From contig JAFGSB010000075.1 in the NCBI GenBank assembly GCA_016934825.1, positions 1 to 39,400 of the forward strand: 39,400 nt of DNA, in the 5' to 3' direction. A program made the position numbers and the translations under genes. This document shows, one piece after another, positions 13,331 to 31,994 of the stretch. Source of the stretch: Candidatus Zhuqueibacterota bacterium. Lineage in GTDB: Bacteria > Zhuqueibacterota > Zhuqueibacteria > Residuimicrobiales > Krinioviventaceae. The notes under the pieces were generated by a model, which searched no databases, was not told the DNA's origin, and saw nothing but the letters and a program-made list of their open reading frames with translations. Position 1 is the stretch's first letter; each line of letters begins with the position of its first letter.

Positions 13331-15736
13331 TTATGATCTGATAATTTCCACGATACCGGATTCACCGTTAATTTCCAGCAAATCGCCGTTGCGGATGACC
13401 TGCGTTGCGCGGGCGATTCCGGTGACGGTGGGCAGGCCGAATTCCCGGGCGACAATGGAGGCGTGCGATAAAACCCCGCCTGTTTCCAGCACCATCCCGG
13501 ATATCACGCTGAATATCGGGGACCATGCCGGATCGGCGGAATGCGCGATCAGTATTTCATCGCCGTTGGCCTGGCGCGCTTCCGTGAACGACCTTGCAAT
13601 ACGGGCCCGGCCCCGGATAACACCTTTACTGACCCCAAAGCCCTCCAGCCGTTCCGATCCGTTTGCCGAGGAAAAACTTTTCTTTTTTTGCTGCTGTAAA
13701 ATTACATGATTACGATTTATATGATCGATGCGCTCTTTTTTTCTGTGCTCGATGCGAGCAGAAATATCGGTTTTATACAAATCAATTTTTAAAAATTCTC
13801 GCCGGTTTAAAAAGAACATATCATCGGTCTGTTTCAGCATACCCTGACGGACCAGCATTTCACCGCGCCGTTGTACGCTTGCCCGCATAACCGCCAGAAC
13901 TTTGTGCCACTGGTTCCGCTGATTTTCCCGCAGCAGGGTGAATTCCTGTGTGTAATATAACAACCATTTGAACAAGTGCTTCATCGCGGAACGGTAAACG
14001 GGGAAAAGACCGTCGATAAAATCAAAACACAATTTTTCGGCGTTTTCACGGATGGATACGCGGGCGGTAATCTCTTTTTTAACCATATCCGACTTTTTTG
14101 CTATACCGATCTTGTCAAACAGGCCTTTAATGGTTTCCGGATCGTCCATCCAGTTCGGATGGAATATATCCAGGCTTTCGGACCTGTGCCCGTATTTTTT
14201 GAAAAAACTCTCATATGAATCTTTACTTTGATCCAGATGCAGTAAATGCACATTGGCCTTTATTGTTTCGTTGTTAAGGCCCGCCAGTAATTCCGACAAC
14301 AATTTATCGCAATTGTTTACCGGTTTTATTAAATATAAAAACTTTTGCAACAGAACAAAAAAGATATCGGCAAACGTGATGCTCCATCTGTGCAGGGCTA
14401 AAAACCGGTCTGTTAACTGTTCGGTTTCTATGAATATATCCAAAATATTTTTTTCGTTCGTCAATCCGGTTTTTAATTCCGCGACACGCCTGTTACTAAA
14501 ACGAACAAACTTTCGCCACAGCCGCAAATTAATTTCCGGTATCCAGTTAAAATCCTTAATCAGTATCAGTCTGACAATATAGGGAACGGCTTTAACGGCT
14601 TCCAGCAGCCATCTGTTCTTCCGGTTTTGTAGTAATAACGATGCCTGTTTGTCTCGTGATATAAAATTCAGGGGAATCGGCGCGTAGATACGCTGGAAAA
14701 CAGTAATTTTTGTATACGGATAACCATCGATTAATTTTGTTATCTGTGCGCTTTTGGCCAGTTTCAGATTACCCATAAATTTTAAAGGCTCACGAAACGC
14801 ATTTTTTATAACCCATTTTTCCAAAATAGACCAGCCAAGCGGTGATAACGGTTCGACAAAACGCTCGGCGAAAAAATAATCCGTCCATATCTCGCCTTTT
14901 TTGTCCACCTTGGTCCGCTGAGTACTGACCGAATGGGTGATGGGACGGGACTGCAGTATCCACAATTTACTCTTTTCAACGGCCCACTCGATATCCTGCG
15001 GAGCGTCGAATAATTTTTCAATCTTTAAAGAGAGAGCCACCAATTCCGAAATCAGTCGTTCAAAATCACATAAAGAATTTAAATACTGTATATCTTTTTT
15101 GTCGCCGTATATTTTGTCGATTGTATGATTGTCTCTGCGGACTATTAAACGCACCGGTTCCTGTTTCCCTGATACCAGCGATTCACCGATCCCACGGACG
15201 ATTTCAATGAACAGTACATTTTCATCGCCGGTTACGGGATGCTTGGTAAATAACACTCCGGCGAAATCCGGTTTTAACATTTTCTGCACCAGTACCGCCA
15301 TGGCTGTTTTGTTCATGGAAAAGTTAAACTGCCGCATATATGCGCGCACATAACGGGAATTCATCGAGTCCCAGCATTTGTATACGGATTTTAGGAGCTC
15401 ATCGGGTGTGCGGTTATTGAGAAAAGTTTTAAATTGTCCGGCCAGAGAAAAAGTTGCATGATCTTCAAACGGCGCGGATGAACGAACAGCCAGAGACATC
15501 GGTTCGGAAGAGCTTCCCTGCAGGTATGCCAGTCCTTTTGATATAATAGCTGTAATATTTTTTTGGGTGTTTTTTTTTCGGACAAATTTTTTATATGCGG
15601 CGCAACTGATAACAAAAAATTCAGGCACCGGGAAGCCGTTTTTAAATATTTTGCCGAGTCGTGCGGCCTTGGCACCGGAAACATAAATATTGAGAACGGC
15701 GGGATCAGTATGTCTCAAAACATATTTATCGGACAT
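13331..15736 (-). CDS. PEP-synthase-like dikinase, rifampicin-phosphotransferase architecture
   Basis: An 801-residue enzyme with an N-terminal ATP-grasp domain (SGAKAARLGKI...GFPVPEFF; LAVRSSAPFED; FAGVLFTKHPVTG; IEWAVEKSKLWILQSRPIT). A divergent middle region of about 430 residues follows. At the C-terminus lies the swivelling phosphohistidine domain, with the catalytic His in GGVLSHASIVAREFGLPTV. The PEP/pyruvate-binding barrel of true PEP synthase is missing. ATP-grasp, variable acceptor region and His domain is the order seen in rifampicin phosphotransferase, where the middle region binds the acceptor. The acceptor here is unknown and the middle region looks divergent, so I do not assign rifampicin resistance. 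The helicase gene follows after 31 bases. No strong ribosome binding site is seen. Confidence 0.75.
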   Translation of the reverse strand: MSDKYVLRHTDPAVLNIYVSGAKAARLGKIFKNGFPVPEFFVISCAAYKKFVRKKNTQKNITAIISKGLAYLQGSSSEPMSLAVRSSAPFEDHATFSLAGQFKTFLNNRTPDELLKSVYKCWDSMNSRYVRAYMRQFNFSMNKTAMAVLVQKMLKPDFAGVLFTKHPVTGDENVLFIEIVRGIGESLVSGKQEPVRLIVRRDNHTIDKIYGDKKDIQYLNSLCDFERLISELVALSLKIEKLFDAPQDIEWAVEKSKLWILQSRPITHSVSTQRTKVDKKGEIWTDYFFAERFVEPLSPLGWSILEKWVIKNAFREPLKFMGNLKLAKSAQITKLIDGYPYTKITVFQRIYAPIPLNFISRDKQASLLLQNRKNRWLLEAVKAVPYIVRLILIKDFNWIPEINLRLWRKFVRFSNRRVAELKTGLTNEKNILDIFIETEQLTDRFLALHRWSITFADIFFVLLQKFLYLIKPVNNCDKLLSELLAGLNNETIKANVHLLHLDQSKDSYESFFKKYGHRSESLDIFHPNWMDDPETIKGLFDKIGIAKKSDMVKKEITARVSIRENAEKLCFDFIDGLFPVYRSAMKHLFKWLLYYTQEFTLLRENQRNQWHKVLAVMRASVQRRGEMLVRQGMLKQTDDMFFLNRREFLKIDLYKTDISARIEHRKKERIDHINRNHVILQQQKKKSFSSANGSERLEGFGVSKGVIRGRARIARSFTEARQANGDEILIAHSADPAWSPIFSVISGMVLETGGVLSHASIVAREFGLPTVTGIARATQVIRNGDLLEINGESGIVEIIRS

Positions 15737-15819: not shown

Positions 15820-16809
15820 TTATTCGGTTCCATATATTTGCGAATCCTGCAATTTTTTCTCCGCCTGTTCAAACTCCTGAACCAGTTTTACCATATCCGG
15901 ATCATCCTTCATGTCCTCTTTTAAGGCTTCCTGATGTACGCTGTGTGACACAATTTTTTTGTCCTTGTCCAGTTCTACGGTTAACTGGCCGACATATTTC
16001 CCCATGCTTGGCGTCGTGACAACGATTGTATTATTATAGAATTCATTAGGTGTAACCATATAATACTGACCGCCCATCACGGCTACATCAATGCCTTTTA
16101 CCTGGCCCGTTATCTCTTTAAAAGTCTTATAATTTCCGTTAAACAAAAATACTACCATATCGGATTTTTCACGAACCTTTTCAATATTCTTTTGTAATTC
16201 TCCAAGCGGGGGTTTGCTTTCCAGCATTTGTTCATCGAGTTGTTTGGAAAAAAGCATACCGTATTCATCACATGCACCGATAATTCCTATTTTGATTTTA
16301 TTAAACGGAATAGATTTGGCATTCTTGTTTGCTTTGATCGTTTTTACAAGAAACGGATCGGTAAAATGATTATTTGTATCCTTGTAATACGTATTGGACG
16401 CGACAAAATCCACATCATACTTTTTGGCAAGTCCGCGGATAAACTCGCCGCCGTTAAAAAAATCACGGTAAGATAGATTGAATATCCTGTACCCGATTTT
16501 CGATAATCCGTTAACAAGATAATTGGTATAAAGCTGAGCGATTTCGCCGCCGCCCCGGCCAAAACCTCCGGCATCCATAAAGATGACAAAATCCGTACTG
16601 TCCATATTGTCCTGTATAAAGGCAGCTCTCCGAGCCAGCCCGCCGTAGCGTGCGCTCTTTCAGCCGCAGGGATTCACATAACCCATAATATCGTTGGAAT
16701 AAAAAATCGTCAAAGTCGCGGTCGCATTTTCATCCAGCGCTTCAGAAGTATGGTTACATGCCAGTAAAATCCACATGATGGATAAGATGGTAAAAAAGCA
16801 AATTCGCAT
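15820..16809 (-). CDS. Candidate selenoprotein: metallophosphatase-like lipoprotein with in-frame TGA
   Basis: Read through one TGA (16660-16662) this is a 329-residue lipoprotein. The ATG at 16809 has GAGG six bases upstream; the signal peptide ends in the lipobox LLAC (Cys18). Codon 50 is TGA, in YVNPCG-TGA-KSARYGGLARRAAF. The frame continues without another stop to 15820, and both sides match one UshA/5'-nucleotidase-like domain (LTIFYSND before, GGLARR...FVIFMDAG after). Relatives that I recall carry PCGC here, so TGA replaces a cysteine codon, the usual sign of selenocysteine. Other genes here (exonuclease, asnS, mlaF) stop with TGA, so general recoding is excluded. Usual metal ligands look lost: SNDIMG for NDxHG, DAGG for DAGD, LSYRDF for LGNHEF. 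A nonsense mutation or sequencing error remains possible. Confidence 0.72.
16618..16641 (-). promoter_or_regulatory. Candidate bacterial SECIS hairpin after the in-frame TGA
   Basis: On the minus strand GGGCTGGCTC (ending at 16632) can pair with GAGCTGCCTTT (from 16628) around the three-base loop GGA at 16631-16629. The stem includes G-U pairs and one C-C mismatch. The loop starts 28 bases after the TGA and begins with G, which fits what I know of bacterial SECIS elements. A competing fold pairs GCGGCT with AGCTGC and GAGC with GCTC, and caps a CGC(TACG)GCG hairpin, with the TGA inside the lower part. Which fold forms cannot be decided by eye. Confidence 0.45.
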
Positions 16810-16946
16810 ATCTGACCTCAAAATAATGATTCTCAAACAATATTTTAATGATAAATGGTTTAAAAAGCAAGAAATCAATTAACAAATAAAACAAATATTA
16901 GAACATCAATGAAATTTACCTTTATTATAAATAAGTCAACAAAAAT

Positions 16947-18776
16947 TTATAGGGCTTTGACTACAATCAGATTTTCCAGTGCACTTACATCCACATTAAT
17001 CAACCGGTTGAGATCAAAAACAACCCGTGTGAAAGGACCGTCGCGGTGAAATCCAAACCGCGCGCGGATAAACGGTCCCCTGTTCAATTCGATTTCCTTT
17101 ACATCCGAAAGCATGTAAATATTCGGTATATCGATAATTAACCGGTCCGGCGAACTCAATGTTTTTACGCTGTAGCCGACCTTTCCGTTACACACAATAT
17201 GTATCGTCCGGTCATCAACGGCCAGAACAGTTCTTAATGCCGATCCGTCGGGCAACTCCGGTTTCGAGTCAAAAGTAAACAGCATAAATTCCACGCGCCG
17301 GTTTCTTGCCCGCCCCGCTTCCGTACCATTATCGGCTACCGGCCGGAGTTCTCCATAACCGATAGGCATATAGAATTTGTTATCCTCAAAATTCTTTTCG
17401 GTTTTCAGATATTTTATAACGCTTTCGATACGGCGCTGTGACAGACGGATATTGTACCAGTCGGTCCCGATGCTGTCCGTATGCCCGGAAACATGTATCT
17501 TTGCCTCGGGATAGGTGCCGAGAATATCCGCCGCCTGGTTGATCGTATTATAGTCGGCTTTACGGATATCAAATTTATCAAAATCGAAATTGATACGCAT
17601 GCTGACAAGCACCTTATTTTTCCCTTTTTGTTCAACCTCGATTTTTCCTTGACTTTCCGCGGCGATTTGCTTTGCCCGGGCAAGACGGCGGGCCATTTCA
17701 TCTTCCAGCTTTTGTAAAGCGATACGTGATCTTCTGGCGGCCTCCAGTTCATCCTGCAGCATCCGGTTGTAATCCTCCGATTTTTTAGCGGCGCCGAACA
17801 CGAATAAAAGTGAAAATCGATGAATATCGGTTTCAAACACGTCCATTGGCGAATAAGCGTAATCCAGCCGGGTCTGGGAACCGGCCAGCCATTCCATCGG
17901 AATTTTCAAACCGAATCCGGCTGATAACGGCGTTGCGGCAACATCATGGAACTGGTATCCCGTCCGCAGGGACAATAATTCACTGATGGTTAATTCTCCG
18001 CCGATATAATATCGCAGGTTTTCCTTCACAGTCCAGGATACATCACCAGCCACATTGATATGTAAAGACTCGCTTTTCCCCAGTCCTGCGGCCGTTCCAA
18101 GCCGGAATGTTGTGGGTAACGGCGCCGACATATCACGGAATTTTACTTTGGAGAGCCCGATATTCTGAATTGTCGCTCCGAAAAGGATGCTTTTATAATG
18201 AAATTGTGTTCCCAGGTCAATTCCTATCGTGGTGCTGTGCTGTCCGGCAAGCGTTTGTCGTAAAAATTTGAAACTGGAGCCGACGCTGAAAATATAATCC
18301 CATAATTTTAATCGCGACCCATACCCGACATTGAACAAAAAATCATCTCCGCTCACCGTCCCCCCGGTTTGTCGGAACTGTTCATCGACTTCATCAATTT
18401 TACCCTCATTAAAATAGGTAAAATCAATTCCGACAATGCCGTATTTATACGGCAACGCCAGCGCAAATGAACCCTGCTGGGTGTCGTCAAGCCAGTTATG
18501 AAAGTTAGCGGCCAGCATTTCGGTATTTAATTGTCCCAGGCCCCCGATATTATACCGCATCAGATTTATATCATCGGCCAAAGCTGTACACGCTTCACCC
18601 ATAGCAACCTGCCTTGCTGCGGAACTTATCCGGAGAAACGGGGCGCCGGAATAGCCGACTCCGCTGTTGTTAAACGAAAAAGTATTCCCGGTAATTGCCA
18701 GCCAGATACTTATTAAAACCGGCCATTTTATATTGTTAATAAAAGTGCAGTATTTAACACAGGTTATTTTATTCAT
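16947..18776 (-). CDS. PorV/PorQ-like barrel fused to OmpA and AMIN domains
   Basis: A 609-residue envelope protein with four parts. A signal peptide (about 1-35) is followed by a PorV/PorQ-type outer membrane beta-barrel (about 40-330, with SSAARQVAMGEACTALADD and LPTTFRLGTAAGL). Next come a short charged coiled coil (335-380) and an OmpA-like peptidoglycan-binding domain (about 390-500, with INFDFDKFDIRKAD, GHTDSIG, LSQRR and RARNRRVEF). An AMIN-like domain ends it (about 520-609, with DRLIIDIPN and FTRVVFDLN). PorV normally shuttles T9SS cargo at the outer membrane; OmpA and AMIN domains bind the cell wall. The fusion would tie such a barrel to peptidoglycan (inference). GGAG lies five bases before the ATG. 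Confidence 0.8.
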   Translation of the reverse strand: MNKITCVKYCTFINNIKWPVLISIWLAITGNTFSFNNSGVGYSGAPFLRISSAARQVAMGEACTALADDINLMRYNIGGLGQLNTEMLAANFHNWLDDTQQGSFALALPYKYGIVGIDFTYFNEGKIDEVDEQFRQTGGTVSGDDFLFNVGYGSRLKLWDYIFSVGSSFKFLRQTLAGQHSTTIGIDLGTQFHYKSILFGATIQNIGLSKVKFRDMSAPLPTTFRLGTAAGLGKSESLHINVAGDVSWTVKENLRYYIGGELTISELLSLRTGYQFHDVAATPLSAGFGLKIPMEWLAGSQTRLDYAYSPMDVFETDIHRFSLLFVFGAAKKSEDYNRMLQDELEAARRSRIALQKLEDEMARRLARAKQIAAESQGKIEVEQKGKNKVLVSMRINFDFDKFDIRKADYNTINQAADILGTYPEAKIHVSGHTDSIGTDWYNIRLSQRRIESVIKYLKTEKNFEDNKFYMPIGYGELRPVADNGTEAGRARNRRVEFMLFTFDSKPELPDGSALRTVLAVDDRTIHIVCNGKVGYSVKTLSSPDRLIIDIPNIYMLSDVKEIELNRGPFIRARFGFHRDGPFTRVVFDLNRLINVDVSALENLIVVKAL

Positions 18777-18827: not shown

Positions 18828-21749
18828 TTATCGAATAATCATAAACTTGCGAAAAATCGAAATTTGTTTGGTTTCATTTGGATTATCCAGTTGTAAATTA
18901 ACATGAACTTTTAACCAGTACGTCCCACTGCTTACTTTTTGTCCACTATCATTGTACAGGTCCCACCAGTTATCAGCAATACCATACCTTTCTTTGGGGA
19001 CCAATGTTCCGGTATCAAAATTTAACAAACCGCCGTCAATTTCTCTTACTCTTTCGCCGGCGATATTAAATATCTCAAGTTTCCGCACCACAAGCGAACC
19101 CGTAGCCGATGCTATCCTCATCCGGAAATTTGCGGCAGTATTTTCATTATAAGGATTCGGGGCAACTTCGACTATATAGGGTTCACCTCCAAGATCGATA
19201 TATACACTTTGTTCGGAGGGTACCAGTACGGACTTTGTCAACGTTACATTATCGACATATTCGGCCTGGATACTGCCGCCATAGGAGCTTTGCATGATAC
19301 CGTCGTTCAGGGTGATGCCGTTCTTGTTATCCATGACCGGTATGCCTGTTTTATTAATAAAATTGTCGCTATTATAAACCCCCTTGCTGTTGGGAATTTC
19401 GTATAAATAAACATCCTCGCGGTCCAGGGCCGTATTTTTGAGGACAATCTTTAACGAATCCTGTTTTGCCGGATTTAGATTTTTATCCTGTTCGCCGGTA
19501 ACCCGGATAAATAATTGATCACCGAAATATACTTCCGATAACGGCTGGCCTTTGGCGTTTTCTATCGTCATTTCTCCCCTGGTTGCCTGGACAACCAGGA
19601 CCGAATCAGCGGATATATCTGTGGAATCATTTGCATCCTGATAATATACAATCATCGTATCCCTGTCGACAACTTCAAGTGTATCGTTACCGGGAACGGA
19701 ATAATTTCTGATAACGATGGGCAGGCCCGTGTCGTTTTGAAAATAGTTTTGTTTAAACCGCAGATTGATCGTTTCCTCATCACGGCTTATTAATGATTTT
19801 ACCGGCAATTCAACATACTGGCGGGTCAGTTCCAGGTTATTATCATCCAGAATGATATAGATTTTATCCATCACTTCACCCGCGGCCGGTTCACCCGCCG
19901 TTGCCAGGTAGCTGTAAACATTATTACCCTCCTCGTCCACGAACCGTAGCGACGATACAGTGGACATAATCTTTTCATAAACCACTTTCCAGCTTATAAG
20001 CGCAGGAGTAACGGAGGAATTTTGAGTGCTCGGGAACGCGTTCAGATTGATGGACGTCGCTTCCCATAATGCCGGAATATTCTCCAGATTGAGTATATTT
20101 TCGCTTTCGTTCGTGTTGGCGGAAAACTCGTGCAACGTTCGATACGGGCTTTTGTTTTCAATTATTCTGAATAGTAATTGTATATCGCCTCTCTTTAGCG
20201 GATCATCCGGGAGTTTTAATTTACAGGAAAATTCTTTCCATTTGGGGATCATCGAATCCGATTCGGCGATCCCGATCGAAGAAGCCCAAAAATACGGTTT
20301 GGGAGTACCGTTGATTTTATAATAATGATATTTGACGCTGACTTTTTTCAAAACCGGCGTATCTTTTGGGCTTTCCGTTTTGAGATAAGCCCGGAACTGG
20401 TAAATTCTGAATCCGTTATGCGCATCAGCAAACTTTTGTCCTGATTTTTTATATGTCGACAATGTGTCCCCGTCGGGTCCGAGCCATGGGGCGCGTTTAA
20501 TGCTGTTTTCATCCGCACCGGTGCGGAATTGCAATTCCAGCGATGTGAGTTGGGAATGGTTTGTATCCGCGTCCCAAAATAACGTATCAAAGTTGACATC
20601 CTGGGCAAGCACATAAATCTGGGATTCCCGCCAGCCGCTTTGAAAACCGATCCGGGAGGGCAATATTTTATTGGCCTGTTCATTTCGGTGCACGACCATG
20701 AGTTTGTCCCGATCTTTGGAATCGGCGCCGATCTGATCGACATCCCGCAATGTGTACAGAGATAATTTCAACTCCCAGAAATATTCGCTATCGTTCGGAT
20801 CAACTTCTATAACCCGGTTGTTGCCCGCATCGGCGATGAGTACATGACCGTTTACCAGAATATCCGCGTCCACTGGATTGTTTAATCCGTATTCCGGGTT
20901 GCCGGCATCGGCCGGGTCCGGGTACTGCCATATTATCGAGGAATCCTGCCTCGAGACAATAATGACACGATTGTGACCCTGGTCCGTGACGAGTATATTA
21001 TTCGAGGTTTTTATATACTCCACATCCACCGGATTGCTCAACACATCTGGACCCAATTCCCATACAACAGTTTTGGATGCCTTGTCGACAATAATGACCC
21101 GGTTGTTCCCGCGGTCGGCTATGAGTACCTGTGAAGCCCCGTCAATTTTCACCGCGTCCGCGGGATTGGATAACTGGTTCGGACCGCTTCCCTCAAGTCC
21201 GTTCGGATCGCCATATTCCCAATCGATTGATTGGGTTTCACGACCGATCTGCATCACTTTATGATTTCCCCGGTCGGCAACCAGGATACGGTACTGGCCG
21301 TTTTCAAAAAATTCAAAAGCGTCCACCGGCAATACAAGCTCACTGCCTGTATATTCCCAAGTGATTCTTTTTTCCAGCGGATTGTAGATAAAAAGTTTTC
21401 CCGACACCCCGGGCACGACCGGACGAAGCGGATCGGTGATCAGGTAAAGGTCCTGGTCATCCAAAGTTCTGATATCTATATCCTCCACCCCGCCCAATTC
21501 AATACTATTATATGGCCACTCCCAGTCAAATCCTCCGAGCGTAAAATTCTCAAGATCTATATCATTCCCATTTAATCCAAAAACTGGTTCAAGTGTTATT
21601 AATGAATCTTTTTGGACACCCGCTTCAACAATAGTTTTGGGAAATGGGGCGCTGTCCTCCCATACAATTATTTCTCCCGCGGAAACAGTGTGGATGTATA
21701 AAAGACAATTGATAACAAATGAATAAAAAATTATTAAATTTTTTTTCAT
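18828..21749 (-). CDS. Secreted NHL/PQQ-like propeller protein with sorting-like C-terminus
   Basis: Large exported protein of 973 residues with a signal peptide (MKKNLIIFYSFVINCLLYIHTVSAG). Residues of about 80-370 hold at least four repeats with the core (V/I)L(I/V)(A/T)DxGxN(R/K)V(I/M), interleaved with WEYG/WELG tryptophan motifs, as in NHL and PQQ-like propellers. The middle (about 370-840) looks like beta-sandwich domains. The final 110 residues (YIVEVAPNPYNENTAANFRMRI...LEIFNIAGERVREI...SSGTYWLKV) form a FlgD-like/T9SS type A sorting-like module. It lies directly upstream of the PorV-like gene, so it may be a cargo of that barrel (inference). Its ligand or enzymatic role is unknown. 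Confidence 0.8.
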   Translation of the reverse strand: MKKNLIIFYSFVINCLLYIHTVSAGEIIVWEDSAPFPKTIVEAGVQKDSLITLEPVFGLNGNDIDLENFTLGGFDWEWPYNSIELGGVEDIDIRTLDDQDLYLITDPLRPVVPGVSGKLFIYNPLEKRITWEYTGSELVLPVDAFEFFENGQYRILVADRGNHKVMQIGRETQSIDWEYGDPNGLEGSGPNQLSNPADAVKIDGASQVLIADRGNNRVIIVDKASKTVVWELGPDVLSNPVDVEYIKTSNNILVTDQGHNRVIIVSRQDSSIIWQYPDPADAGNPEYGLNNPVDADILVNGHVLIADAGNNRVIEVDPNDSEYFWELKLSLYTLRDVDQIGADSKDRDKLMVVHRNEQANKILPSRIGFQSGWRESQIYVLAQDVNFDTLFWDADTNHSQLTSLELQFRTGADENSIKRAPWLGPDGDTLSTYKKSGQKFADAHNGFRIYQFRAYLKTESPKDTPVLKKVSVKYHYYKINGTPKPYFWASSIGIAESDSMIPKWKEFSCKLKLPDDPLKRGDIQLLFRIIENKSPYRTLHEFSANTNESENILNLENIPALWEATSINLNAFPSTQNSSVTPALISWKVVYEKIMSTVSSLRFVDEEGNNVYSYLATAGEPAAGEVMDKIYIILDDNNLELTRQYVELPVKSLISRDEETINLRFKQNYFQNDTGLPIVIRNYSVPGNDTLEVVDRDTMIVYYQDANDSTDISADSVLVVQATRGEMTIENAKGQPLSEVYFGDQLFIRVTGEQDKNLNPAKQDSLKIVLKNTALDREDVYLYEIPNSKGVYNSDNFINKTGIPVMDNKNGITLNDGIMQSSYGGSIQAEYVDNVTLTKSVLVPSEQSVYIDLGGEPYIVEVAPNPYNENTAANFRMRIASATGSLVVRKLEIFNIAGERVREIDGGLLNFDTGTLVPKERYGIADNWWDLYNDSGQKVSSGTYWLKVHVNLQLDNPNETKQISIFRKFMIIR

Positions 21750-24765: not shown

Positions 24766-25680
24766 TTACTGTTTACTTTTCACACTAATGCTTAAACCGA
24801 CAGCAATCGATAAATATTTTGTTTCTTCGCTGTCTGCCCGCGAAGATAAAATGATGGGGACCTTGGCCCCCAGAACGACGCCGGCGGTTTTCGCGTGCGC
24901 CAGAATACTGAGCGCTTTATAAAAAACATTGCCGGCCTCAATTGCCGGCATGATCAAAATATCGGCGTCACCGCCGACGGGACTTTCTATACCTTTAATT
25001 TCACATGCTTTTTTACTGATCGCGTTATCCAGCGCCAGCGGTCCGTCCACAATGGCATTCTGAATTTGCCCTCTCTGGTTCATTTTGGATAGAACCGCGG
25101 CGTCGATCGTGCAGGGCATGGCTTTATAATTGACCTTTTCCAGGGCGGATATGAGAGCCACTTTTGGGGGATCTATTCCCAACAATCTTGCGCAGGCCAC
25201 CGCGTTATCGATAATACCGATTTTCGCGTCAAGATCGGGCGCGATATTCATTCCACCATCCGTCATAAAGATGAGTTTGTGATAGGTCGGAACTTCCAGA
25301 ATCGCGCAATGAGATAAAAGTTTGCCGGTACGGACATCATGCTGTTTGTCAAGTATGCCCTTTAACAAAGTAGCGGAAGAACAACGGCCTTTCATCAGGG
25401 TGTCGGCCAAATGTTCATGAACCAACTGTATCGCCCGCACGACCGATTGATTTTCATTGTCGGCCTGGACAATATCAAATTTACTGATATCAATATTTTT
25501 CTCTTTAGCACATTGAATTATGCTTTTTTTATCACCCACCAGTACGGCATCGGCAATGCCTTCTTTGTTTGCTTGGGATATTGCCGACAATACTTCATGT
25601 TCATCGGCCATCGCCACCGCTATTGTTTTTTTTGGTCTGGTCTTGACAATTTTCAACAGTTCATCAAATGATGTAATCAT
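24766..25680 (-). CDS. ptb: Phosphate butyryltransferase (phosphate acyltransferase)
   Basis: A 304-residue enzyme that converts butyryl-CoA (or a branched acyl-CoA) and phosphate into acyl phosphate and CoA. Family features include DTLMKGRCSSATLLKGILDK, SHCAILEVP, FMTDGGMNIAPDL and the C-terminal PVGGDADILIMPAIEAGN...AGVVLGAKVPIILSSRAD. The length is typical for Ptb. The start ATG overlaps the stop of the kinase gene by four bases (ATGA), so the two are translated together. Acetyl- or branched-acyl specificity cannot be excluded. Confidence 0.88.
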   Translation of the reverse strand: MITSFDELLKIVKTRPKKTIAVAMADEHEVLSAISQANKEGIADAVLVGDKKSIIQCAKEKNIDISKFDIVQADNENQSVVRAIQLVHEHLADTLMKGRCSSATLLKGILDKQHDVRTGKLLSHCAILEVPTYHKLIFMTDGGMNIAPDLDAKIGIIDNAVACARLLGIDPPKVALISALEKVNYKAMPCTIDAAVLSKMNQRGQIQNAIVDGPLALDNAISKKACEIKGIESPVGGDADILIMPAIEAGNVFYKALSILAHAKTAGVVLGAKVPIILSSRADSEETKYLSIAVGLSISVKSKQ

Positions 25681-26765
25681 GATTGTTTGACCTCTTTTGC
25701 ATATATTTTCGCTTTTTCCTGCCCGCTTAAGATACGAAAAACTCCTTGCGCCAGGGCCTCCATCTCTTCTTCGCCCGGGAAAATATAAACCGGAGCAAGA
25801 AAAGAAACTCTCTCTTTAATTTGTTTGATAATCAGCTTATTATTCGCTATTCCCCCGGTAAGTACAATTGCATCGATTTTTCCTTTTAAAACCGCGGCAA
25901 GTGATGCAATTTCTTTTGAAATTTGATATACCATTCCAGCCAGTATTTTCTCGATATTCCGGTCCTTTTTGTTACGGATTTTGTCCTGCAGTTCTTTTAA
26001 ATCGTTGGTACCCAGATAAGCGACAATTCCGCCCTTTCCCGTGATTTTTTTTAAAATCTGCTCCTGATCGAATTTGCCGGAAAAACACAACCGTACCAGG
26101 TCGCCGGCCGGCAAGGTTCCGGCCCTTTCGGGTGAATAGGGCCCTTCGCCGTCCAGCGCGTTATTGACATCGATAACCCGCCCTTTTTTATGCGCGGCAA
26201 CGGATATACCTCCGCCGAGGTGGGCGACGATCAGGTTCACATTCTTGTAATCTTTATTTAATAACGCGGCCGTCTTGCGGGCTACCGCTTTATGATTTAA
26301 AGCATGAAATATACTTTTGCGCGTTAATTGAGGATGTCCCGATAACCGCGCCACATCATCCAGTTCGTCCACTACAACCGGGTCCACGATAAAAGCGGGT
26401 TTGTTATATTTTTGAGCCAGCGCGTTTGCCAGTATCCCGCCCAGGTTGGATGCGTGTTCGCCCTGAACACCGGAACGCAGATCATTTAACATCTCGTTAT
26501 CTATTTTATAAGAACCCCCCGGAATGGCTTTCAGTAAACCTCCCCGGCCCACATACGCGTCGATGTCCTGTAGGGAAATATTTTCATCTTTTAATAATTT
26601 GAGTATCCATTCAAGCCGGTACTCAAATTGATCGACAATCCTGGTAAAACCGGACAAATCACCAACCGGATGGTGAAGACATTTATCAAAAATCTTTTCA
26701 ATATCATTAAAAAGCGCTAACTTTGTTGAGGTGGAACCGGGATTGATCACTAAAATTTTAAACAT
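25677..26765 (-). CDS. buk: Butyrate kinase
   Basis: ASKHA-fold kinase of 362 residues that makes ATP from butyryl phosphate, or the reverse. Visible motifs are NPGSTSTKLALF (phosphate 1), the RGGLLKAIPGGSY loop, HLGGGISVAAHKKGRVIDV, DGEGPYSPERAGTLPAGDLV and LTGGIANNK. I start the gene at the ATG at 26765, preceded by GGGAG five bases away; the TTG four codons upstream would overlap that site. With ptb it forms a fermentative module that yields ATP from acyl-CoA, or works in branched-chain acid metabolism. Confidence 0.9.
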   Translation of the reverse strand: MFKILVINPGSTSTKLALFNDIEKIFDKCLHHPVGDLSGFTRIVDQFEYRLEWILKLLKDENISLQDIDAYVGRGGLLKAIPGGSYKIDNEMLNDLRSGVQGEHASNLGGILANALAQKYNKPAFIVDPVVVDELDDVARLSGHPQLTRKSIFHALNHKAVARKTAALLNKDYKNVNLIVAHLGGGISVAAHKKGRVIDVNNALDGEGPYSPERAGTLPAGDLVRLCFSGKFDQEQILKKITGKGGIVAYLGTNDLKELQDKIRNKKDRNIEKILAGMVYQISKEIASLAAVLKGKIDAIVLTGGIANNKLIIKQIKERVSFLAPVYIFPGEEEMEALAQGVFRILSGQEKAKIYAKEVKQS

Positions 26766-26882
26766 CCAGCCTCCCAATTTACCGAAAATGAATCAGATTT
26801 TACTTATTAAAGCGCTTATACAATAACAGTACTGTACAAATCACAAATAAAAATCAAAAAAATAAAAATTCTTTAAAGCAAC

Positions 26883-30992: not shown

Positions 30993-31994
30993 TTATTTTA
31001 TGTTTCCGATATGAAACGGTTTTTCTCCCGCATTTTCCAAAGCGGTAAATACGGAATCATAAAAATCCGGTTTTACAACAAAAACAAGCCCGATACCGAG
31101 GTTAAAAGTTTGACGCATCTCCGGGTCTGTAACATTGCCGAAATCCTGTATGAGCCTGAATTCCACGGGAATCTGCCAGCTGCTCCAGTCAATGTGCAAT
31201 TTCATATTTTCACGCAGTAATCTTTTGGTATTGCCGATAATTCCGCCGCCTGTAATATGACTGATACCGACCAATCCCGGGATTCTTCTAACAGCCCTGA
31301 TGGCCTTTGCATAACTTTTATGAACCTTTAACAAACATTTACCCCACGACTCACCCAGGTCATCCACGTGCTTTGTTAAATCAACTTTGTTGACTTCAAG
31401 CAGGACCTTACGCGCCAGGGAATAACCATTGGTGTGCAGGCCATTGGAGGTTATTCCGAGCAACAGATCGCCGGCTTCAATCCTGCTGCCGTCGATGATG
31501 TCGTTCTTATTCACGGCGCCGACTATGGTACCGGCAAGATCATATTCGCCGGGTGAATAAAAACCGGGCATTTCGGCCGTTTCACCGCCGATCAGCGCGC
31601 AGTCGTTAGTTTTACAGGCTTCAGCCATACCGCTGACAATTTGTTCGGCGATCTCCGGCTTTAACGATAATGTACCGATATAATCCAGGAAAAACAACGG
31701 ATCTGCCCCGGATACCATAATGTCATTAACACAGTGATTGACCAGATCCTGGCCGATCGTATCATGAATGTCCATGGCAAAAGCTATTTTTAATTTGGTT
31801 CCCACACCGTCGACGCTGGATACGATAACGGGTTCCGGGTATTTTTTCAAATCCAGACTAAAAAATCCTGAAAAAAGTCCAACATCTTTTAACACATTGG
31901 TATTAAAAGTGGATTTTGCCAGAGCGGCGATTTTTTTGGTGGAGACCTCCGCGGCATGCAGATCGACTCCAGAATCCTTGTAACTAATGGACAC
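30993..31994 (-). CDS. purM: Phosphoribosylformylglycinamidine cyclo-ligase
   Basis: AIR synthetase of 333 residues, step five of de novo purine synthesis. Motifs include YKDSGVD at the N-terminus, SSVDGVGTKLKIAF, LIGGETAEMPGFY, GITSNGLHTNGYSLAR and HITGGGIIGN. The start is GTG, directly after the TGA of the DUF4416 gene (TGAGTG), with AGGAG inside that gene's end. No other purine synthesis gene is nearby except the salvage gene apt. Confidence 0.92.
   Translation of the reverse strand: MSISYKDSGVDLHAAEVSTKKIAALAKSTFNTNVLKDVGLFSGFFSLDLKKYPEPVIVSSVDGVGTKLKIAFAMDIHDTIGQDLVNHCVNDIMVSGADPLFFLDYIGTLSLKPEIAEQIVSGMAEACKTNDCALIGGETAEMPGFYSPGEYDLAGTIVGAVNKNDIIDGSRIEAGDLLLGITSNGLHTNGYSLARKVLLEVNKVDLTKHVDDLGESWGKCLLKVHKSYAKAIRAVRRIPGLVGISHITGGGIIGNTKRLLRENMKLHIDWSSWQIPVEFRLIQDFGNVTDPEMRQTFNLGIGLVFVVKPDFYDSVFTALENAGEKPFHIGNIK

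Follow-up and report, generated by a model that had tools for sequence, protein, structure and literature searches.

The window, the 39,400-nucleotide stretch of DNA that we analyzed, contains a gene made of two open frames joined by one TGA with no change of frame (Table 1). A sequence-only reading had placed and described these frames correctly and had left the strand unstated. The gene is read from the minus strand, 16809 to 15820, with its start ATG at 16809-16807 and a terminal TAA at 15822-15820. Reading through the TGA, which is the only one in frame, gives a protein of 329 residues, and the sequence around codon 50 is PCG-TGA-KSARYGGLARR. The lipobox signal peptide and ribosome binding site proposed by that reading can both be seen in the sequence, as LLAC and GAGGT. 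We infer that the product is a secreted envelope lipoprotein.

Table 1. Features at and around the gene, in window positions.
Feature	Position	Strand	Basis or remark
UshA-like selenoprotein gene, short heme-free form	15820..16809	minus	329 aa, Sec at codon 50
Sec codon TGA (codon 50) in PCGU	16660..16662	minus	sequence and alignment of relatives
Ribosome binding site region, GAGGT core	16813..16824	minus	sequence; a few bases 5' of the ATG
Lipoprotein signal peptide, lipobox LLAC, Cys18 at 16758-16756	16756..16809	minus	sequence; aligned Cys in several members of the same family
Predicted bacterial SECIS hairpin, GGGCUGGCUC-GGA-GAGCUGCCU	16620..16641	minus	apical loop GGA at 16631-16629, 28 nt after UGA
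OmpA-domain outer membrane protein with AMIN domain, upstream neighbor	16947..18776	minus	common to 10 of 15 sequences compared, window included
NHL-repeat protein, conserved neighbor	18828..21749	minus	locus comparison
PPDK_N/PEP-utilizer protein, downstream neighbor	13331..15736	minus	locus comparison

Judging by the genomic sequences, codon 50 almost certainly encodes selenocysteine. The sequence-only reading had made its case depend on selA, selB, selC and selD, and all four are found in the source genome (5.39 Mb, 95% complete). SelA (576 bits), SelB (347 bits) and SelD (371 bits) score over their curated cut-offs, and there is a tRNA-Sec with anticodon UCA (L011, G000:C16:23471-23565). 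In the proposed mechanism, the genome's SelA, SelB, SelD and tRNA-Sec would insert Sec at position 50 at the UGA, which the SECIS hairpin then follows. As the same reading held, TGA is a normal stop elsewhere: a same-genus homologue (L020) carries the internal TGA and terminates at another TGA.

Some side observations concern the machinery itself. The selD gene is a selenoprotein gene too, with its own in-frame TGA near the N-terminus (L008 2394-2396, minus; KCAG-TGA-ASKLAP). The SelD model also matches the window weakly at 31182-31736 on the minus strand (29 bits, under its cut-off), where the product is probably another protein of SelD's ATP-binding superfamily. The nearest named relatives of the source genome are KSB1/Calditrichota MAGs. 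selC has been reported absent from KSB1 genomes (PMC9012183); the tRNA-Sec (UCA) is clear in the source genome, and selC was probably overlooked in the genomes of that report.

If translation really stopped at the TGA, or if the TGA were a base error, the locus would be a pseudogene or an assembly error with two separate open frames. The sole point in favor of this is that a bacterial TGA is normally a stop, and we give it next to no chance. The same TGA is present in many genomes that were assembled separately. A protein search found homologues in 56 of 60 related genomes, some of the matches being separate UshA-like paralogues that have no TGA, and most of the same-class matches have the in-frame TGA. 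In all of the aligned relatives that we read out, including a same-genus homologue with 60% identity, the TGA is at the same column. Comparing assemblies rather than reads, we found TGA conserved where a base error would have hidden a TGC or TGT. The codons 3' of the TGA are under purifying selection relative to the same-genus homologue (dN 0.28 over 278 codons, with a dS of 1.9 that is near saturation). The covariation in the SECIS (below) and the full Sec machinery in the genome also argue against a pseudogene or an assembly error. In our reading, the presence of this TGA in other genera and phyla already refutes the explanation.

We also scanned GTDB genomes with a 12-row alignment as the query and found 80 loci in many phyla, including candidate division KSB1, Calditrichota, Chloroflexota, Krumholzibacteriota, Armatimonadota, Planctomycetota, Fibrobacterota, Gemmatimonadota, deltaproteobacterial groups and others. 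Where the motif was found, it is PCG-TGA in most loci and PCGC in some. Codon 50 of the homologues is thus TGA or encodes Cys, in keeping with the earlier proposal that the TGA replaces a Cys of PCGC (Cys48-Gly-Sec50).

The co-occurrence with SelA supports the Sec reading because a genome with no detectable SelA has Cys. G031, which is of the same class and 96% complete, has no SelA over the cut-off, and its homologue has Cys in a QCGC motif and reads AQCGCKVNPAGGLSRR. This is the best natural control for Sec/Cys exchange. Among the 60 relatives there are three genomes with a TGA gene and no SelA match (G035, G039 and G057), and a fourth (G007) in which the SelA match is below the cut-off. SelA is present in genomes of the same genera as these four (G055, G045, G041 and G002), and the missing SelA is likely due to incomplete assemblies (78-95% complete).

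The SECIS element was expected within 16600-16665, and the predicted hairpin does lie inside that stretch. Folding GGGCUGGCUC-GGA-GAGCUGCC gives a hairpin with a stem of 5 bp plus 3-4 bp across a bulge and a GGA triloop that starts 28 nt after the UGA. This agrees in loop, stem and spacing with published bSECIS constraints: a loop of 3-9 nt with a G in the first two places, an upper stem of 4-16 bp, and 16-37 nt from the UGA (PMC13188914). We found no Rfam family match on the window. The folding energy of the region is weak (mean z of -0.79 in one test and z of -0.08 in another, with synonymous or dinucleotide shuffles), because most of the stem already follows from the A-R-R-A codons.

The overall folding energy is no proof; what discriminates is a synonymous pair that joins the third base of the Ala59 codon to that of the Arg61 codon. 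This pair forms in 58 of 63 Sec genes (C-G in 31, U-A in 26, G-C in 1) and is broken in the other five, versus none of 7 Cys genes (Fisher p 6.6e-7, indicative only as the sequences are related). Among distinct Sec sequences, 38 of 43 pair, versus a mean of 19.8 and a maximum of 32 in 20,000 shuffles (here too the sequences are related and the p is only indicative). The identity of the pair switches at least 8 times on the family tree. For example, the window gene has GCT..AGA and a same-genus relative has GCC..AGG, so both sides of the pair changed together.

The claim that no selenoprotein of this kind had been described did not hold. A UshA-like CxU family (COG0737) is listed among the major selenoprotein families in a 2008 ocean survey (PMC2398784), reviews from 2022 and 2026 list UshA-like selenoproteins (PMC9312934, PMC13188914), and NCBIfam has a model for them, NF041198 (UshA_like_PCGU). 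The 2008 survey counts the UshA-like family as one of the few major families that have no conserved Cys-based redox motif (PMC2398784), which speaks against the redox role proposed below. In the literature searched, which was mainly open access, we did not find a functional study of UshA-like selenoproteins.

The window protein shares with NF041198 the PCGU motif, the metallophosphatase fold, the signal peptide, the Sec/Cys interchange and PCG(U/C) followed by GGLARR, and it matches model positions 3-288 (1.1e-41). However, NF041198 is an equivalog with a cut-off of 275 bits, which the window protein, at 143 bits, does not reach. Seven short relatives score 114-189 bits. The members that we scored over the cut-off are fused forms (L042, L066 and L113, 297-337 bits) with a C-terminal tetraheme c554-like region, which the window protein does not have. 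There is also a local match to UshA-like selenoprotein family 2 (NF049981) over the PCGU region, residues 33-73 (1.8e-8). Its 34 bits fall below the cut-off of 140, and the motif described for that family is CxxU (PMC13188914), whereas the window protein has CxU.

The family comes in two sizes. The longer members, of about 425-470 residues, mostly carry a cytochrome c554-like tail with four CxxCH motifs, and members of about 300-330 residues have no CxxCH; there is none in the window protein. In the family alignment, 2 of the 29 members have NCBIfam c554/decaheme matches. On the tree, the KSB1-group sequences form a single heme-free clade of 17 (support 100/100), and next to it is a same-class clade with both short and heme forms. 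The heme tail has changed state several times on this tree. Two same-class genes (L042 and L045) have the PCGU domain with a cytochrome tail, and their sister genes (L046 and L047) do not have the tail. The heme tail is readily gained or lost. One sequence titled Actinomycetota (L050) adjoins the window protein within the KSB1-group clade (100/95), and it is likely from a misnamed MAG or contig.

An AlphaFold model (alignment A3, pLDDT 94) was compared with known structures by VIA-align, which gave UshA at Z 32, CD73 at Z 31.5 and SoxB at Z 29 over about 270-285 residues. A PDB profile search agrees with this fold, and a viral fold library returned generic phosphoesterases only. The modeled fold is that of the metallophosphatase domain of UshA, CD73 and SoxB, with the C-terminal domain absent. 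Together with the Sec machinery and the conserved TGA, this match bears out the idea of a UshA-fold selenoprotein. The kinship to SoxB thiosulfohydrolase also appears in a profile match to TIGR04486 (1e-16), but this reaches 60 bits against a cut-off of 550 and begins after the CGU motif.

We used as a ligand reference a UshA-like protein of the same genome in which DxH, GD, GNH and GHxH are intact. Unlike UshA and CD73, the window protein lacks the metal ligands DxH, GD, GNH, H and GHxH, apart from Asp40, and has the PCGU motif. Within the clade of its own order, Asp40 is the only one of seven metal-ligand positions that is kept throughout. Other residues stand there in place of the His of DxH, the Asp of GD, the Asn of GNH and the two His of GHxH, and mostly also in place of the His of SHLG, which is Asn in the window protein. 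The fused tetraheme members and the same-class short forms, on the other hand, mostly keep D, D, H and H, with Glu at the Asn position; where the fused forms mostly have four ligand positions, the window protein keeps one. The heme-free, ligand-poor KSB1 form is therefore a variant of a known family that falls beyond the NF041198 model at its cut-off.

The residues that are kept in the family include C48, G49, U50, the GG-AR motif and Gly270. The invariant Cys48-Gly-Sec50 follows the former D-x-H ligand loop by 6-8 residues, which would put CGU close to the old metal site. The GGxARRA motif after CGU also occurs in active 5'-nucleotidases and is ancestral. That shared motif, with the kinship in fold and sequence to 5'-nucleotidases, is what speaks for a protein that has a real Sec in an accessory role and is still a nucleotidase or phosphoesterase. 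We consider this very unlikely, as the ligands listed above are replaced, the C-terminal substrate-binding domain is absent, and the genome has the separate UshA-like protein with its ligands intact. With six of the seven metal ligands lost, the alignment makes it unlikely that the window protein still works as the ancestral type of phosphohydrolase.

A gene order of NHL-repeat protein, OmpA/AMIN protein, selenoprotein, and PPDK-like protein or helicase is widely kept in the KSB1 group. This gene order suggests an envelope setting and does not point to any chemistry. We found no cytochrome or redox partner in the conserved neighborhood of the KSB1/Calditrichota loci, a point against the proposed redox role, and relatives outside the KSB1 group have different neighbors with no shared partner. 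Elsewhere in the window (24769-26777, minus) there are adjacent phosphate acetyl/butyryl transferase and acetate-kinase-family genes, and this butyrate-kinase-like pair is kept near the selenoprotein locus in several relatives.

The best-supported role, which we think is probable, is that of an envelope protein with a redox function through Cys-Gly-Sec, built on a dead phosphohydrolase scaffold. Cys48-Gly-Sec50 would most likely be a selenenylsulfide/thiol redox pair, and the protein would be a periplasmic or outer-membrane oxidoreductase that exchanges electrons with a c-type cytochrome. We propose this exchange because most of the longer relatives, which are from other phyla, have a fused tetraheme c554-like domain. 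In the heme-free branch, the cytochrome partner would be a separate protein. The source genome does have a stand-alone tetraheme c554-like protein (locus L130, 1375-1956) that shares 33% identity with the fused tail (E 6.7e-16), and its partnership with the selenoprotein is a guess.

The selenocysteine could also be real and CGU not be an electron-transfer pair, binding a metal or metalloid instead or acting as the nucleophile in SoxB-like sulfur/selenium chemistry. Profile and fold both place SoxB among the closest relatives, and the fused and same-class short forms, with mostly D, D, H, H and Glu for Asn, may still bind one metal. However, the clade of the window protein's own order is nearly free of ligands while its CGU is invariant, and the fusion to a tetraheme cytochrome points to electron transfer. 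On balance, we regard metal binding or nucleophilic chemistry as unlikely, though clearly less so than a surviving nucleotidase.

Returning to the redox role, we tentatively propose, as somewhat less likely than not, that the KSB1/Calditrichota sequences are a monophyletic heme-free subfamily in which a metal-less 5'-nucleotidase fold has become an envelope oxidoreductase of a new Cys-Gly-Sec type, with a chemistry unseen in characterized selenoproteins and a separate multiheme cytochrome as its partner. The short members are under the NCBIfam cut-off, so annotations of these genomes may split them in two or list them as pseudogenes. For the family as a whole, the graded loss of ligands, the invariant CGU and the tetraheme fusions mean that selection keeps CGU and not the hydrolase center, and a redox function is therefore directly testable.
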